Source: Actinomycetota bacterium
GTDB taxonomy: Bacteria > Actinomycetota > Thermoleophilia > Solirubrobacterales > Solirubrobacteraceae
Direction: 5' to 3'
Assembly (NCBI GenBank): GCA_005885515.1
Contig: VAWK01000049.1
Span: 1 to 37,647 of the forward strand
DNA: 37,647 nt
Position numbers and translations under genes: made by a program. Below are positions 6,447 through 21,765 of this stretch, one piece after another. Each line of letters starts with the position of its first letter. Positions within the stretch are counted from its first letter, which is position 1. The notes beneath the pieces were generated by a model. That model was given only the letters and a program-made list of their open reading frames with translations. It did not search any database and was not told the DNA's origin.

Positions 6447-6468
6447 ACCAGCACCGCGGCGCCTCTCA

Positions 6469-6583
6469 GACGAGGGCAGCCGCGCCTACGAGACGAGGGC
6501 AGCCGCGCCTACGAAACGAGGGCAGCTGCGCCTACGAGACGAGGGCAGCCGCGCCTACGAAACGAGGGCAGCCGCGCCTACGC
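6469..6583. repeat. Five tandem copies of a 23-bp unit
   Basis: Units start at 6469, 6492, 6515, 6538 and 6561 and are near-identical, with core GAGGGCAGCCGCGCCTAC. The period is not a multiple of three. The last 18 bases of the upstream gene, including its TAG (6429-6446), match the unit core at about 15 of 18 positions, and 6447-6468 looks like a decayed copy, so the array may have grown from that gene end. There are no spacers, so it is not a CRISPR array. The right end touches the stop of the convergent DUF1802 gene. Confidence 0.9.
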
Positions 6584-7335: not shown

Positions 7336-8874
7336 TTATTTGGCATTCACGTGCAATTTGCGGCGATTCGCGCGTCGCTCCGCGGGCGGGCGCCCGAACC
7401 CGCCGCCTCCCGGCGTGTGTACGCGCAGCCGCTGGCCGGGCCGGAGCGTACCCGTCGCCTTTCCCGCCAGCGGCGCGCCGTCGAGCTCATCCACGCCGAG
7501 GGCGCCCGGCTCGCCTCCCGCGGCTCCCCGCGGTGGGTGTCGGCGGCGCTCGGCGATGAGCGAGAAGGTCAGCTCGCGCAGCGCCTCGATCTCGCGCACG
7601 ACGCCGTCGCCGCCGCGGTGACGCCCCGCCCCTCCGGAGCCCCGGCGCAGCGCATATTCGGTGACGCGCAGCGGGAACTCGCGCTCGAGTGCCTCGATCG
7701 GCGTGTTTAGCGTGTTGCTCATCGCCACGTGCACGCCGCTCGGGCCGTCGGCGTCGGGGCACGCGCCCTGGCCGCCGCCGATCGTCTCGTAGTAGGAGAA
7801 GTCGCGGTCGCCGAGCGTGAGGTTGTTCATCGTCCCCTGGCCCTGCGCGCGTCCGAAGGCGCTCAGCACCAGGTCGGCGACGCGCGAGGAGGTCTCGACG
7901 TTGCCCGCCGCCACCGCCGCGCCCGGGCGCGCGTTCAGCACCGTTCCCCGCGGCGCCCGCACCTCGATCGGCCGGTAGGCACCGGCCGAGGGGGGGATGT
8001 CGGGATCGGTCAGCACCTTCACCGCAAACAGGCACGCCGAACGCGTGACGGCGAGCGGGCAATTCAGGTTGCCTTGATGCTGCGCCGCGCTGCCGGCGAA
8101 GTCGAGCTCCAGTCGGTCGCCTCGCACCGCCGCGCGCAGGCGCAGGGTCAGGTCGCTGCCGTCCGGCGCCTCCAGCACATCGAAGCAGCGCCGCACGCCA
8201 TCGCCAAGCGCGGCCAGGCAGGCGCGCGTGCGCAGCTCGGCATACTCCAGCACCGAGTCGGTCGCCGCTCGCAGCTGCTCCGGGCCCAGCCGGCGCCCGA
8301 GCTGGGCCAGCCGCAACGCGCCGGTCCGGTTGGCAGCAAGCTGCGCTCGCAGGTCGGCGCGCCGCTCGGCAGGCTGGCGCATCTGCACGGTCAGCTCCTC
8401 GACCGCGTCCTCGTCCAGGCGCCGCGGGGGGATCACCACGCCCTCCTCTGCAAGCGAGCGGCTATGCGCCGGCATCGAACCGGGAAGCGCCCCGCCGACG
8501 TCGGCGTGGTGCGCGCGGCTGGCCGCGAATCCGAGCAGCGGCCCGGGTTCAAGAAACACGGGCGTTATCACCGTGATGTCCGGCAGGTGCGTGCCGCCGG
8601 CGAAGGGGTCGTTGAGAACCCACGACTCCCCCGGCGCGTGCTCCTGGTCGACCACGGCCGCGACGGCGGCGGGCATCGCGCCGAGGTGCACCGGGATGTG
8701 CTCGGCCTGCATGATCATCTCGCCGCCCGCGTTGAACAGCGCGGTCGAGGCGTCGCGGCGCTCCTTGATGTTGGCGGAGTGCGCCGAGCGGATCAGGACC
8801 ACGCCCATCTCTTCGCAGGCGGCGTGCAGCGCCCCCGTGATCACGCGCAGCTCGATCGGGTCGAGCACGCTCAC
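7336..8874 (-). CDS. hyuB: Hydantoinase/5-oxoprolinase B subunit (HyuB family)
   Basis: A 512-aa HyuB-family subunit. It opens with DPIELRVITGALHAACEEMG and carries the family motifs SAHSANIKERRD, DPFAGGTHLPDITVITPVF, a cluster from SRAHHADVGG to GSMPAHS, and a glycine-rich C-terminus (TPGGGGFGRP). With HyuA it would form an ATP-dependent cyclic-amide hydrolase such as N-methylhydantoinase or 5-oxoprolinase; the substrate cannot be read from sequence. GTG 8874 overlaps the hyuA stop as GTGA. The open frame runs on to 9669, but that part lies antiparallel-in-frame inside hyuA and is a shadow. Confidence 0.9.
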   Translation of the reverse strand: MSVLDPIELRVITGALHAACEEMGVVLIRSAHSANIKERRDASTALFNAGGEMIMQAEHIPVHLGAMPAAVAAVVDQEHAPGESWVLNDPFAGGTHLPDITVITPVFLEPGPLLGFAASRAHHADVGGALPGSMPAHSRSLAEEGVVIPPRRLDEDAVEELTVQMRQPAERRADLRAQLAANRTGALRLAQLGRRLGPEQLRAATDSVLEYAELRTRACLAALGDGVRRCFDVLEAPDGSDLTLRLRAAVRGDRLELDFAGSAAQHQGNLNCPLAVTRSACLFAVKVLTDPDIPPSAGAYRPIEVRAPRGTVLNARPGAAVAAGNVETSSRVADLVLSAFGRAQGQGTMNNLTLGDRDFSYYETIGGGQGACPDADGPSGVHVAMSNTLNTPIEALEREFPLRVTEYALRRGSGGAGRHRGGDGVVREIEALRELTFSLIAERRRHPPRGAAGGEPGALGVDELDGAPLAGKATGTLRPGQRLRVHTPGGGGFGRPPAERRANRRKLHVNAK

Positions 8875-13525: not shown

Positions 13526-14475
13526 GTACCACCCGAGCGCGGGCGCACGACCTCGGTGGGTTCCTCCTCGTCGGCGCGATCCACCGGAGCCGGCGGGGCC
13601 GGGCCGGGGGTGGAACCCGCCGCCGGCGCGGCTCCTGGTGATGGCGCTGGGGCGTCAGGTCCGGGCGCTCCTGGGGAGTCAGGTCCGGGCGCCGCAGGGG
13701 AGTCAGGTCCGGGCGCCGCAGGGGAGTCAGGTCCGCGCGCCACAGGGGAGTCAGGTCCGCGCTCGAACGGTGGCGTAGGCCCGGGCGTGCCGACGGGCGG
13801 CGCGGATGCGGCCGGCCGGCCCGTGGGCGGCGCATCCTCCCTGGCCGCTCCCGGGCTGCTCGCTCCAGGGGGCGGCAGCGGGGGTGACTTGGTCGTCGCG
13901 GCTCGCACCGGGGGTGTCGGTGCACCCAGGAGCGAACCCCGCGCCGGCGCAGGCGGCCCAGGCGCGGGCGGGGCCCACGTCCGGGGAGGGCCCCCGCTCT
14001 GGCCGGCCGCGGCCGCGCCGGGGCTTGCCGAGGCGGAGGGGGGGCCCGCGACCGGCAGATCGACGTTGCGGCTCAACGGCAGCCCGCAGTTGGGACAGAA
14101 GCGGTCCTCGCTGCCATGGATCGCCGCGCAGCGCGGGCAGGCGGTGATGCCGGCCTCCCTTAGCACGGTCACCGGCTGGCGCTCCTCCAAGAAGGATTCC
14201 AGCGAGCGCAGCTCGGAGTCGATCTGTCCGAGCGTGCCGAGCTTGGCGAGCACGAGCTCGTCGTTTCGCTGGCCGAAGCGGTGCAGGTTGAAGACGAGCC
14301 CGCCGAGATCACGATAAGCGAGCTCGCGCGCCTTGCGGAGGAAGCGAGCGCGCCTCCGCAGCCGCCCGCGCGCCGCGAAGCCTGGCCGCGTCGCGTCGGC
14401 AGCGTCGGTCCCGTGGCCCGCGCCGGTCGGTTCCGGCGATGAGGGTTGGGAAGTCGTGGCGGATGACTGCTCCAC
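13522..14475 (-). CDS. Helical zinc-ribbon protein with proline-rich tail
   Basis: A 317-aa protein. Residues about 38-105 are a charged helical region (RARFLRKARELAYRDLGG, LESFLEERQ). Residues 115-135 are a zinc ribbon CPRC...CPNCG. From about 140 to the end it is a Pro/Ala/Gly-rich, disordered chain including octapeptide repeats of the GPDSPAAP type encoded by the 24-bp DNA repeat. There is no signal peptide or membrane helix. GTG 14475 lies 9 nt after TAGCAT, consistent with a leaderless start. It overlaps the next zinc-ribbon gene by GTGA, so the two probably act together. The function is unknown; a scaffolding or nucleic-acid role would be only a guess. Confidence 0.7.
   Translation of the reverse strand: MEQSSATTSQPSSPEPTGAGHGTDAADATRPGFAARGRLRRRARFLRKARELAYRDLGGLVFNLHRFGQRNDELVLAKLGTLGQIDSELRSLESFLEERQPVTVLREAGITACPRCAAIHGSEDRFCPNCGLPLSRNVDLPVAGPPSASASPGAAAAGQSGGPPRTWAPPAPGPPAPARGSLLGAPTPPVRAATTKSPPLPPPGASSPGAAREDAPPTGRPAASAPPVGTPGPTPPFERGPDSPVARGPDSPAAPGPDSPAAPGPDSPGAPGPDAPAPSPGAAPAAGSTPGPAPPAPVDRADEEEPTEVVRPRSGGT
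13654..13765. repeat. 24-bp tandem repeat coding for GPDSPAAP-type octapeptides
   Basis: Copies start at 13654, 13678, 13702, 13726 and (partial) 13750, with unit core GTCAGGTCCGGGCGCCGCAG. The period of 24 keeps the reading frame of the minus-strand gene at 13522-14475. Confidence 0.85.
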
Positions 14476-18545: not shown

Positions 18546-18824
18546 GTGACCAAGTCCGAGCTTGTCGATCAGGTGGCCGACCGCGCCGGCCTGAGCAAGC
18601 AGGATGCCGGCCGCGCGGTCGACGCGGTGCTCACCGCGATCGAAGATGCGCTCCGCCGCGGCAGCGAGGTGAGCGTGTCGGGATTCGGCAAGTTCCACGT
18701 CAGTGACCGTGGCGCCAGGATGGGTGTCAACCCGCGCACCGGGGAGCGGATTCAGATCGCGGCCTCGCGCGTGCCGCGCTTCACCGCGGGCAGCGGGCTC
18801 AAGAGCGCCGTGAAGGGCCGCTGA
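18546..18824 (+). CDS. hup: HU family DNA-binding protein
   Basis: A 92-aa nucleoid protein that bends DNA as a dimer. It starts MTKSELVDQVADRAGLSKQD, has the core VSVSGFGKFHVSDRGARMG, the beta-arm tip NPRTGERIQIAAS, and ends FTAGSGLKSAVKGR. It lacks the long Lys/Ala-rich tail of mycobacterial HupB. GTG 18546 with AGGAGG is secure. The stop overlaps the probable CTG start of pyrF, so the two are likely one operon. Confidence 0.96.
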   Translation: MTKSELVDQVADRAGLSKQDAGRAVDAVLTAIEDALRRGSEVSVSGFGKFHVSDRGARMGVNPRTGERIQIAASRVPRFTAGSGLKSAVKGR

Positions 18825-20218
18825 GCCCGCCGCCCGCGTTCGGAGACACGCTCGCGGCGCGCGTAGCCGAGCGCCGCTCGCAGATCGTGCTCGGCATCGA
18901 CCCCGATCCGAGCGCGCTGTGGCCACTGGTGGCGCACGGCGACGGCCGCGGCGGGCGGTCGCGCGGACCCGTGCGCGACGCGGGCCTGCGGGAGCCGGCG
19001 GTGGCCGCGGTGCTCGACCATTGTCGCGCCCTGCTCGACGCCACCGCCGACGCATGCGTCGCCGCCAAGGTGCAGCTCGCCCGCTTCGAGGCGCTCGGTC
19101 CCGCGGGGCTGGCCGCCGCGCGTGCCGTGGCTGAGCACGCCCGGCAGCTCGGGCTGCTGGTCATCGCCGACGGCAAGCGGGGCGACGTCGAGGTGAGCGC
19201 GCGCGCGTATGCCGGCGCGCTGTTTGGCGGCCTCGACACGCCCTTCGGCGGGCTCGCGGGGCTCGAGGCCGACCTGGCCACGGTCAACCCGCTGATGGGC
19301 AGAGATGCGATCCGGCCGTTCGTGAGCGCGGCGCGCAGCGCCGGCGCCGGCGTGCTCGTGCTCGTGCGCACGTCCAACCCCGGCGCGGCGGACATCGAGG
19401 ATCTCGAGCTCCGCGAGGGCGGTGCGGTGTGGGAGCGGGTGGCGATGATCGTCGACGAGCTCGGCGCCGACGGCGTCGGCGAAGCGGGGCTCAGCGACGT
19501 TGGCGCCGTGATGGGAGCGACCGAGCCCGGACATCTTGCCCGCGCACGCGAGCTGATGCCAGGAGCGGTTTTCCTGCTGCCGGGCGTCGGCGCCCAGGGC
19601 GGGCGCGTGGAGGACCTCGTGGCCGCCTTCTCGCCCGGTCGCGCCGCGGGACTGATCAGCGCCTCGCGCGCGATCGCCGACGCGCATCGAAACACGGGCG
19701 GCGAGCCGGCCAGCGCCGCGCGCGAGGAGGCCGAGCGCCTGCGCGAGGCGGCCTGGGAGCTGTCGGAGCGCGCGATCCGGTGCGAGGCGGGCATGATCGG
19801 GATCGCCTCCGGCGCCGGCGCACGCGTGTCCACCGGTGAGGAGCGCGTGACCGGTAGCACCGCCACCTCCGCCAGCGCGGGGGTGGTGGGGAGCGCCGGC
19901 ACGGTCGCCGGCGCGGGCGTGATCGGCAGCGCTGGCACGGTCGCCTCGGCGGGCGTGATCGGCAGCGCTGGCACGGTCGCCTCGGCGGGCGTGATCGGCA
20001 GCAGCGGAACGGTCGCGAGCGCCGCCACCGTCGGCAGCGCGGGCGTGCTGCTCAGCGCCGGCGTGGTGGGCAGCGCCGGGGTGATCGCGGGCCTGGCCAA
20101 CGCGGGCTGCCTGGCATGCGTGGCCTGCGTCGGCTGCGCCAACTGCGTGGGCTGCGTCGCCTGCGTGGGCTGCGTCGGTCTGCGCGGGGTGGTCGGCGCC
20201 GTGGGGCGCTCCCGCTGA
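18821..20218 (+). CDS. pyrF: Orotidine-5'-phosphate decarboxylase fused to hexapeptide-repeat / cysteine-ladder tail
   Basis: Residues about 1-315 are class 2 OMP decarboxylase, the last step of UMP synthesis: LGIDPDPSALW, KVQLARFEALG, the catalytic IADGKRGDVEVSARAYAGA, LVLVRTSNPGA and FLLPGVGAQGG. The frame then runs on without a stop. Residues about 343-465 form some 20 six-residue repeats (VIGSAG TVASAG type, hexapeptide beta-helix-like), and the last hexads turn into CVxCVG with eight cysteines exactly three residues apart. The N-terminal strand and helix (FGDTLAARVAERRS) are encoded upstream of the first standard start, GTG 18887. CTG 18821, overlapping the hup stop as CTGA, is the likely start. 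An internal GTG 19847 with GGTGAGGAG 3 nt before it could start the tail separately. Confidence 0.85.
   Translation: MSPPPAFGDTLAARVAERRSQIVLGIDPDPSALWPLVAHGDGRGGRSRGPVRDAGLREPAVAAVLDHCRALLDATADACVAAKVQLARFEALGPAGLAAARAVAEHARQLGLLVIADGKRGDVEVSARAYAGALFGGLDTPFGGLAGLEADLATVNPLMGRDAIRPFVSAARSAGAGVLVLVRTSNPGAADIEDLELREGGAVWERVAMIVDELGADGVGEAGLSDVGAVMGATEPGHLARARELMPGAVFLLPGVGAQGGRVEDLVAAFSPGRAAGLISASRAIADAHRNTGGEPASAAREEAERLREAAWELSERAIRCEAGMIGIASGAGARVSTGEERVTGSTATSASAGVVGSAGTVAGAGVIGSAGTVASAGVIGSAGTVASAGVIGSSGTVASAATVGSAGVLLSAGVVGSAGVIAGLANAGCLACVACVGCANCVGCVACVGCVGLRGVVGAVGRSR
19883..20026. repeat. Four 36-bp tandem units coding for paired hexapeptides
   Basis: Units start at 19883 (diverged), 19919, 19955 and 19991 (diverged at its end); 19919-19990 are two almost identical copies. 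Each encodes two hexads of the VIGSAG/TVASAG type. Confidence 0.85.
20108..20173 (+). other. Cysteine ladder: eight TGC codons every 9 bases
   Basis: TGC occurs at 20108 and at each ninth base to 20171, so cysteine is every third residue for eight turns, in a CVACVG/CVGCVA pattern continuing the hexad register of the upstream repeats. Confidence 0.9.
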
Positions 20219-20242: not shown

Positions 20243-20662
20243 TCAGCGCGGCTTTGCCTCCTCGAAGCGATCGAGGCCATCCTCTGGGATCGGCTCCCAC
20301 GGCGCCGCGTAGGCGACGAACGCACGCCAGCTGGGGCGCACGCCGGGGTCGCCGTCGAAGGCGCCCATGCGCACGCTCATCTGCGTGGGATCGTCGGGGT
20401 TGCGGCTGAACAGCTGCGCGCCGCATTCGCGGCAGAAGCACTTCTCAAAGCCGCCCTCGGGATGGCGCCACGCCCGCACCAGTTCCTCCCCGCGCAGCAG
20501 CCGCAACGTGCGCCCGTCGATCCTCGCCTGAGCCGAGGAGGCCGTGCCCGTGCGCCGCTGGCAGCGCGTGCAGTGGCAGTATCCGGCTTCGCGCGCCGGC
20601 TCGGTCAGCTCGAAGCGAACGCGACCGCACAGGCAGCCGCCGCTCGTGGATGGACCGGGCAT
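20243..20662 (-). CDS. GFA-family (glutathione-dependent formaldehyde-activating-like) protein
   Basis: A 139-aa zinc protein of the GFA/CENP-V fold. Cysteine sets are GGCLCGRVRFEL (two Cys), YCHCTRCQRRTG (three Cys) and CFCRECGAQLFSR (three Cys), in the order expected for the two zinc sites. Most actinobacterial members are not shown to act on S-hydroxymethylglutathione, so the substrate is unknown. ATG 20662 has no ribosome site; instead a perfect 10-bp inverted repeat abuts the start codon. It is convergent with pyrF, 24 bp apart. Confidence 0.88.
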   Translation of the reverse strand: MPGPSTSGGCLCGRVRFELTEPAREAGYCHCTRCQRRTGTASSAQARIDGRTLRLLRGEELVRAWRHPEGGFEKCFCRECGAQLFSRNPDDPTQMSVRMGAFDGDPGVRPSWRAFVAYAAPWEPIPEDGLDRFEEAKPR

Positions 20663-20685: not shown

Positions 20686-20805
20686 CCCGCTGCCCGCTGC
20701 GCGTCGCCGCCGGGCATTCCCGCCGCGCGTGGCTGGCGTTTAGCCTTGTCCTGCGCCGGCGGGATCCCCTGCGGCGCAGCGGGTGGATAGGGTTAGAGAG
20801 CCAGC

Positions 20806-21765
20806 ATGATCATCACGGTCACGCTCAACGCTGCCATCGACAAGTCCCTCTCGGTGCCCAACTTTCGCCTGGGCCGCCGGCATCGCACCGTCGAGCAGCG
20901 CACGATGGCCGGAGGCAAGGGGGTCAACATCGCGCGCACCCTGAAGGAGCTCGGCCAGCCGGTGATCGCCACCGGCTTCGCCGGCGGCCCCACCGGCACT
21001 CACATCGTCGAGCAGCTCACCGAGGAGTCGATCCTCAACGACTTCGTGCGCATCCGCGAGGACTCGCGCACGAATACCTCGGTGCTCGACCCGACGACCG
21101 GCGAGCAGACGGAGATCAACGAACGCGGGCCCTCGGTGTCGCGCAGCGAGATCGAGCTGTTCCACGACAAGCTCCTGTACCTCGCGCGCGGCGCGGCGAT
21201 CGTGGTATTCGCCGGCTCGCTTCCGCGTGGTGTGGACCCCGACGTGTACGCGTCTCTGATCCGCGAGCTCAAGCGGGCGGAGGTGACCACGGTGATCGAC
21301 ACCGATGGCGAGCCGTTGCGGCAGGCGATGCGCGCCGAGCCGGACGTCGTCTCGCCCAACGTGCTCGAGGCCGAGGAGCTGGTTGGGCACGAGTTCGCGG
21401 GCGAGACCGAGCGCTCGCTGGCCGTGCATGAGATCGCCGCGCTCGGCGCCCGCGAGGCGATCATGACGCTCCCCGACGGATGCTTTGCCCAGGTGATGGT
21501 CGACGGCCAGCCGCGCCTGAAACGCGTCCGCGTCGAGCCCCGCGAACCGATCGCCAAGCGGGGCTCGGGCGACGCGTTCCTGGCCGGGTACCTCGCCGCG
21601 CGCTACGAAGGACGCCCGCCCGACCACTGCCTGCGCTTCGGCGTCGCCTGCGGGGCCGAGTCCACCGGCCGGTTCGGCGCCGGGCTCATCGACCCGCGCG
21701 AGGCGCGCCGCCTGATGGGCGAGGTCGAGCTGTCCGACGTCGAGCTGCCCGCGGAAGTCACCTGA
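20806..21765 (+). CDS. PfkB-type sugar kinase (1-phosphofructokinase/tagatose-6-phosphate kinase-like)
   Basis: A 319-aa ribokinase-fold kinase. It opens with ITVTLNAAIDKSLSVPNF, the hallmark of the FruK/LacC/PfkB subgroup, and has MAGGKGVNIARTLKELG (PfkB signature 1), VFAGSLPRGVD, VVSPNVLEAEELVG and GSGDAFLAGYLAARYEG with the catalytic Asp. FruK- and LacC-type activities cannot be separated by eye. No PTS or sugar transporter is nearby. ATG 20806 follows TAGGGT by 12 nt; there is no strong ribosome site. Confidence 0.9.
   Translation: MIITVTLNAAIDKSLSVPNFRLGRRHRTVEQRTMAGGKGVNIARTLKELGQPVIATGFAGGPTGTHIVEQLTEESILNDFVRIREDSRTNTSVLDPTTGEQTEINERGPSVSRSEIELFHDKLLYLARGAAIVVFAGSLPRGVDPDVYASLIRELKRAEVTTVIDTDGEPLRQAMRAEPDVVSPNVLEAEELVGHEFAGETERSLAVHEIAALGAREAIMTLPDGCFAQVMVDGQPRLKRVRVEPREPIAKRGSGDAFLAGYLAARYEGRPPDHCLRFGVACGAESTGRFGAGLIDPREARRLMGEVELSDVELPAEVT

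Follow-up and report, generated by a model that had tools for sequence, protein, structure and literature searches.

The stretch of DNA analysed here (the window) is the whole of contig VAWK01000049.1 (37,647 nucleotides; our C2) of a 79-contig, 92% complete actinobacterial genome, GCA_005885515.1. On its forward strand lies pyrF, the gene for orotidine monophosphate (OMP) decarboxylase, and its frame continues, with no intervening stop, into a repetitive tail that ends in a ladder of eight cysteines. This tail belongs to an unnamed, conserved family of small actinobacterial proteins, a conclusion that is new and well supported. We further propose, with slightly less than even confidence, that the tail joined PyrF by insertion, that it forms a β-solenoid and that the cysteines of its core are likely to bind metals of the Cu(I) or Zn(II) type. 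Among the genomes examined, the fusion to PyrF is limited to that of the window, a near-identical protein, P0007, aside.

The Cysteine-Ladder Tail and Its Family

The tail comprises 123 residues, from GTG 19847 to TGA 20216, and is built of SAGVVG, SAGVIG and SAGTVA units. An initial annotation of this DNA had described a PyrF frame continuing into about 123 residues with eight cysteines at every third residue, which frame and translation confirm, and a strict six-residue register, of which the units stand but not the period: periodicity is strongest at 12 residues and has a 3-residue register, self-identity being 0.66 at lag 12, 0.60 at lag 24 and 0.43 at lag 18, which lag 6 equals. Nor do the repeats begin exactly at GTG 19847, as had been stated, nine residues preceding the first SAG. 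The 12-residue repeats, of the SAGVIGSAGTVA type and ending in GLANAG (19874-20107), are predicted solenoid coils with S/V/S/T inside; they are followed, on the same plus strand, by the ladder (20108-20173), with cysteines at tail residues 88, 91, 94, 97, 100, 103, 106 and 109, and by a C-terminal cap recognized in the alignment, VGLRGVVGAVGRSR (20174-20215; family consensus GLRGAVG), the tail closing, after the eighth cysteine, with GLRGVVGAVGRSR. Regarding the ladder, a search for seven TGY codons at nine-base spacing returned two overlapping matches, both in the tail, and none in 100 dinucleotide shuffles, the longest such run outside the tail, across the six frames, being three. Third-position GC is at least 0.9 throughout the tail, and proline is absent from it.

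Searching with the tail, as the initial annotation had recommended from position 19847 on, retrieved stand-alone copies in many relatives: 43 of the 151 genomes of the order match, that of the window included, with repeats and ladder both spanned in 34 and only one of the two in the other nine. In 32 of the 33 other genomes with a full match (both places listed), pyrF and the tail gene are found on separate contigs or are separated by more than 400 kb. All eight cysteines are invariant in an alignment of 19 sequences (18 relatives and the window), and a genome-wide scan with this alignment confirmed at least 78 loci, of which 70 were accepted, eight (L170-L176 and L178) being excluded as low-complexity or patescibacterial, while L162 is cut by a contig end; the set A2 holds 63 of the 78, L124, L128, L167, L168, L169 and L177 being left out as well. 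Among the matches listed, accepted loci come from Solirubrobacterales, Geodermatophilus, Blastococcus, Williamsia, Pseudonocardia, Actinomycetospora, Mycolicibacterium, Acidimicrobiia and others. Members share 12-residue repeats, a run of 7 to 14 cysteines at every third residue and a GLRGAVG-like cap, all of which are found in the window tail. Of 396 genomes sampled evenly across the phylum, at least 11 have a match at E≤1e-8, which in eight extends to the ladder, and in the genus the family is present in 2 of 24 genomes (G000 and G125), the weak repeat-only matches of G156 (E 5.9e-6) and G162 (E 1.5e-4) not being counted.

The ratio of non-synonymous to synonymous substitution rates (dN/dS) over the last 52 codons lies between 0.04 and 0.38 in 13 pairs, all cysteine columns being shared and 11 of the pairs differing in at least one cysteine codon; as judged from these rates, purifying selection acts on the C-terminus of the family. 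No Pfam or NCBIfam model reaches its cut-off in the window tail, 42 relatives give only weak matches to collagen-like or HxsA4 profiles, and no title describing a SAG-repeat and cysteine-ladder family was found in the open-access literature. Searches of predicted proteins (5.8 billion entries) gave at least 6 and at least 54 matches, and the family is seemingly under-called by gene finders. In patescibacterial L171, L173, L175 and L176, cysteine triplets near the C-terminus end in CVGC(V/I)GLR, very like the family cap; these frames are 574-616 residues long and have no SAGVIG repeats, and their likeness to the family may reflect common origin or convergence. One genus of the order carries the family gene in broken form (L083 at 8215-8217, with the same place in L034, and L048). 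Indeed, G043 has TGA at a ladder cysteine codon and an early TAG, and G076, of the same genus, has a frameshifted copy; selenocysteine was considered for this TGA and rejected, since a TAG follows and the G076 copy is frameshifted, both genes looking decayed.

The Junction with PyrF and Its Origin

From 18821 to the TGA at 20216-20218 the reading is uninterrupted, and no stop separates the PyrF domain from the tail. The PyrF core (18821-19774; TIGR02127 and PF00215) matches TIGR02127 over residues 7-291 with E 2.6e-65 and 220.2 bits, against a cut-off of 110.6. Translation probably starts at CTG 18821, which overlaps the stop of the HU gene as CTGA (18821-18824), because the first ATG, GTG or TTG in frame (GTG 18887) falls inside the conserved QIVLGIDPDP motif. 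Several same-genus loci likewise have CTG, with no ATG or GTG, at the corresponding position, and this non-standard start may be conserved in the genus. The tail does not follow the domain directly, as had first been described: the core ends at about 19774, and an open linker of 24 residues (19775-19846), the region in which genus relatives have a stop, precedes GTG 19847. Indeed, the pyrF stop lies no more than 12 residues from the AW-x-x-S motif in all 17 correctly read same-genus loci out of 21, the minus-strand loci L061 and L066 having been reread in the right strand and L071, L073, L074 and L075 not being counted.

As no stop follows the PyrF core, ribosomes that complete it must translate on into the tail; the fused protein would have a computed mass of 45.2 kDa from CTG 18821 or 42.9 kDa from GTG 18887, of which the core accounts for about 32 kDa. 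Beside the fusion, a free tail could also be made from internal starts. One candidate is GTG 19847 (19847-19849), for which the GGTGAGGAG noted by the initial annotation does end 3 nt upstream (AGGAG); another, suggested by its sequence context, is ATG 19793 (19793-19795), with GAGG upstream. The stand-alone relative L084 has a comparable start, MSTSPLENAASGVIG with GAGG. The choice first offered between one protein and an independent gene is thus answered on both sides, the tail being a separate gene in relatives and joined here in an uninterrupted frame.

The simplest reading of the fusion, and the most likely, is that an insertion between pyrF and pfkB, directly after the pyrF core, removed the stop and joined the tail to PyrF. 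pyrF is flanked by the HU gene on one side and, on the other, by a minus-strand gene of the glutathione-dependent formaldehyde-activating (GFA) type (20243-20662; PF04828, E 2.5e-24) and by pfkB (20806-21765, plus strand; PF00294, E 3.6e-37), which adjoins pyrF directly in the genus. The distance from the end of the PyrF alignment to the start of pfkB is 68-285 nt in 19 of 21 same-genus loci (of the other two, one lacks pfkB within reach and the other is truncated by the end of its contig), and 1031 nt in the window, where the gap contains the tail and the GFA gene. The right side of this extra segment is marked by TTTAGCCTTGT (20739-20749, plus strand), the counterpart, compared by eye in 10 relatives, of a CGCTAGCCTnTGT-like motif before pfkB. 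No tblastn match to GFA was found near pyrF in 34 related loci. That GFA travels with the tail was considered and rejected, none of the 89 loci L081-L169 giving a GFA match, with L031 as positive control.

It is also possible, although we consider it doubtful, that the fusion is an accident or an assembly error and that only the free tail, started at GTG 19847 or ATG 19793, matters. This would agree with the internal start candidates and with the absence of a clear fusion from 69 related loci: 19 of these have a long in-frame open stretch upstream, which in 18 shows the base pattern of another frame and in L130 is ambiguous, the test having been repeated by another approach since its first form could miss a fused gene. 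The initial annotation had itself named, as grounds for giving up the fusion, that relatives might always encode the tail separately; these loci go that way, yet P0007 (286 residues, from one contig of 2461 bases) has a near-identical PyrF and tail with a junction likewise free of stops. Coming from another contig, it supports the junction, and its tail, shorter by one 12-residue unit, suggests a change in repeat number. Moreover, the CYTH-domain proteins P0029 (26.5 bits, cut-off 23.2) and P0014 (20.9 bits, below the cut-off) carry the same kind of cysteine-ladder tail in frame and are likely further fusions of the family. PyrF is thus probably not the sole partner, and fusion probably happened more than once, counting only PyrF and CYTH, since P0010, P0011, P0042 and P0048 may be metagenome chimeras. 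For PyrF, the fusion is probably tolerated and not needed.

Predicted Fold and Possible Function

The tail is predicted to be a narrow β-solenoid with 12 residues and four inward residues per coil, its interior being S/V/S/T and, in all four inward places of the last two coils, cysteine. For one of two models of the tail, the 12-residue β-helix of the Tenebrio molitor antifreeze protein (TmAFP; 1ezg, 1l1i) outranks the other solved folds, and in neither model is a helix predicted. As outlined in PMC8038014, every third residue of the 12-residue TmAFP coil points inward, an arrangement that the tail shares as far as its sequence tells. A TmAFP-like fold with a cysteine core is likely and fairly supported, although TmAFP is not among the sequence matches of the tail, which is bacterial and probably cytosolic and has four cysteines per coil at one end, TmAFP having two per coil throughout. 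Of the left-handed hexapeptide β-helix first suggested, the solenoid is retained by prediction and the six-residue units with aliphatic residues are shared, but the period is 12 and not 18, lag 12 exceeding lag 18, and PF00132 has no match in the tail or in 42 relatives (E≤0.01). Collagen-like repeats (PF01391, NF038329, NF046116) have a triplet register with a small residue at every third position and match the family weakly; for a collagen triple helix the score is 21.7 bits against a cut-off of 27.2 and the tail has no proline, and we set the collagen and phage tail-fibre matches aside as triplet low complexity.

Regarding their orientation, the cysteines do stack as had been supposed, but most likely inward and not as an exposed face, because they occupy a register almost free of D/E/K/R/N/Q/H: such residues make up 1-2% of this every-third position in the repeats, which the ladder cysteines continue (in the ladder itself the position is 100% cysteine by construction), unlike the other two ladder positions (11% and 27%). 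With four cysteines facing inward in each coil, some two to three and a half coils would form a thiol-lined bore. PyrF is a cytosolic enzyme and the N-termini, read by eye, show no obvious signal peptide, from which we infer that the tail protein is cytosolic as well. In the cytosol, inward thiols would stay reduced and could coordinate Cu(I), Zn(II) or similar thiol-loving metals; the four inward cysteines per coil and the fusion to a cytosolic enzyme together suggest such a bore. Metal binding itself is a guess by analogy. The copper storage protein Csp3, as summarized in PMC7558416, holds as many as 20 Cu(I) within a bundle of helices, and the many core-buried thiols of cytosolic Csp3 and bacterial metallothioneins may provide the mechanism proposed for the tail (PMC7558416), although Csp3 is a four-helix bundle.

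Among other fates of the same rod, a structural role seems unlikely: its flat Ala/Gly/Val sides would stack into self-assembling fibres, the cysteines only capping or packing the end. Outward repeat positions are indeed mainly A/G/V (D/E/K/R/N/Q/H 4-20%), with a grand average of hydropathy of 1.24 for the tail, and repeat number varies, as in P0007; however, invariant columns concentrate at the cysteine end, a difference of degree, the repeats also being constrained in pairwise comparisons. Still less probable is that the cysteines form disulfides or a redox buffer as in TmAFP, which one model matches best among solved structures and whose core disulfides are given as C2-C8 in PMC8038014, since with four cysteines per coil two bonds of this type would, on geometric grounds, cross in one plane, and the cytosol, for which the PyrF fusion argues, is reducing. 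We regard as very improbable a precursor akin to those of ribosomally synthesized and posttranslationally modified peptides, with enzyme-modified cysteines: the C-terminus is cysteine-rich, and HxsA4 (His-Xaa-Ser repeat) matches the window weakly (E 0.55, 11.2 bits, cut-off 55) and 2 of 42 members at E≤0.01, yet no modifying enzyme recurs, the largest cluster of non-family neighbours covering 12 of 70 loci at mixed positions and a single radical S-adenosylmethionine gene (MiaB-like) occurring among 29 neighbours scanned. Least credible of all is an ice-binding protein, for which the likeness to TmAFP is one of fold only; the TCT or TxT ranks are absent and threonine at outward positions does not exceed 8%.

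For the metal-binding solenoid, a broader proposal, possible but rather unlikely in our view, would be that of a new intracellular class, a 12-residue β-solenoid with a thiol bore, spreading as a free gene behind unrelated actinobacterial genes and weldable onto an enzyme, here PyrF. If true, metallothioneins and copper storage proteins would have a β-solenoid equivalent in the form of a rigid tube, its bore lined with thiols and its number of coils tunable. The tail also offers a natural test of how a small wandering gene becomes a domain, with the fused state in the window genome and the empty site in relatives.

Genomic Setting of the Free-Standing Copies

In the 69 loci, the gene directly upstream is co-oriented in 47, opposite in 20 and out of reach in two; gene calls are crude here, the family frame itself having been called in only 43. 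Of the 47 co-oriented loci, 22 offer a possible start that shares 4 or 1 nt with the stop upstream; 17 of these starts are ATG, GTG or TTG, and five require CTG. Upstream genes are unrelated across clades (10 scanned: enoyl-CoA hydratase, helicase, epimerase, short-chain dehydrogenase, MFS, iron-sulfur subunit, ABC protein, EAL/GGDEF, hydrolase and one without a match), and those within the order (nine scanned) encode GNAT, Lon, SMC, desaturase, acyl-CoA dehydrogenase, MiaB-like, dihydrolipoamide acyltransferase-type and HAD proteins, one having no match. No neighbour that would indicate a function is shared across clades, and a defence role was set aside as PADLOC gave no match. The place of the family gene is constant inside a clade and different between clades, so that the gene moves or is regained, slowly; no vehicle is visible, and a plasmid and phage search with L150 gave no match, to which little weight attaches as a query of this kind may be masked by the low-complexity filter. 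In the Mycolicibacterium-type loci L112, L132, L142, L149, L150, L154, L157 and L158, the family gene stands behind one common gene, in L142 that of an iron-sulfur subunit (PF13085), a place fixed clade-wide.

Two further repeats were observed in the window: a tandem unit of 23 bases, a length not divisible by three, present in five copies at 6468-6582, and 24-base repeats at 13645-13787, where a minus-strand frame encodes a Pro-rich GPDSPAA array after cysteines that look, by eye, like a zinc ribbon.
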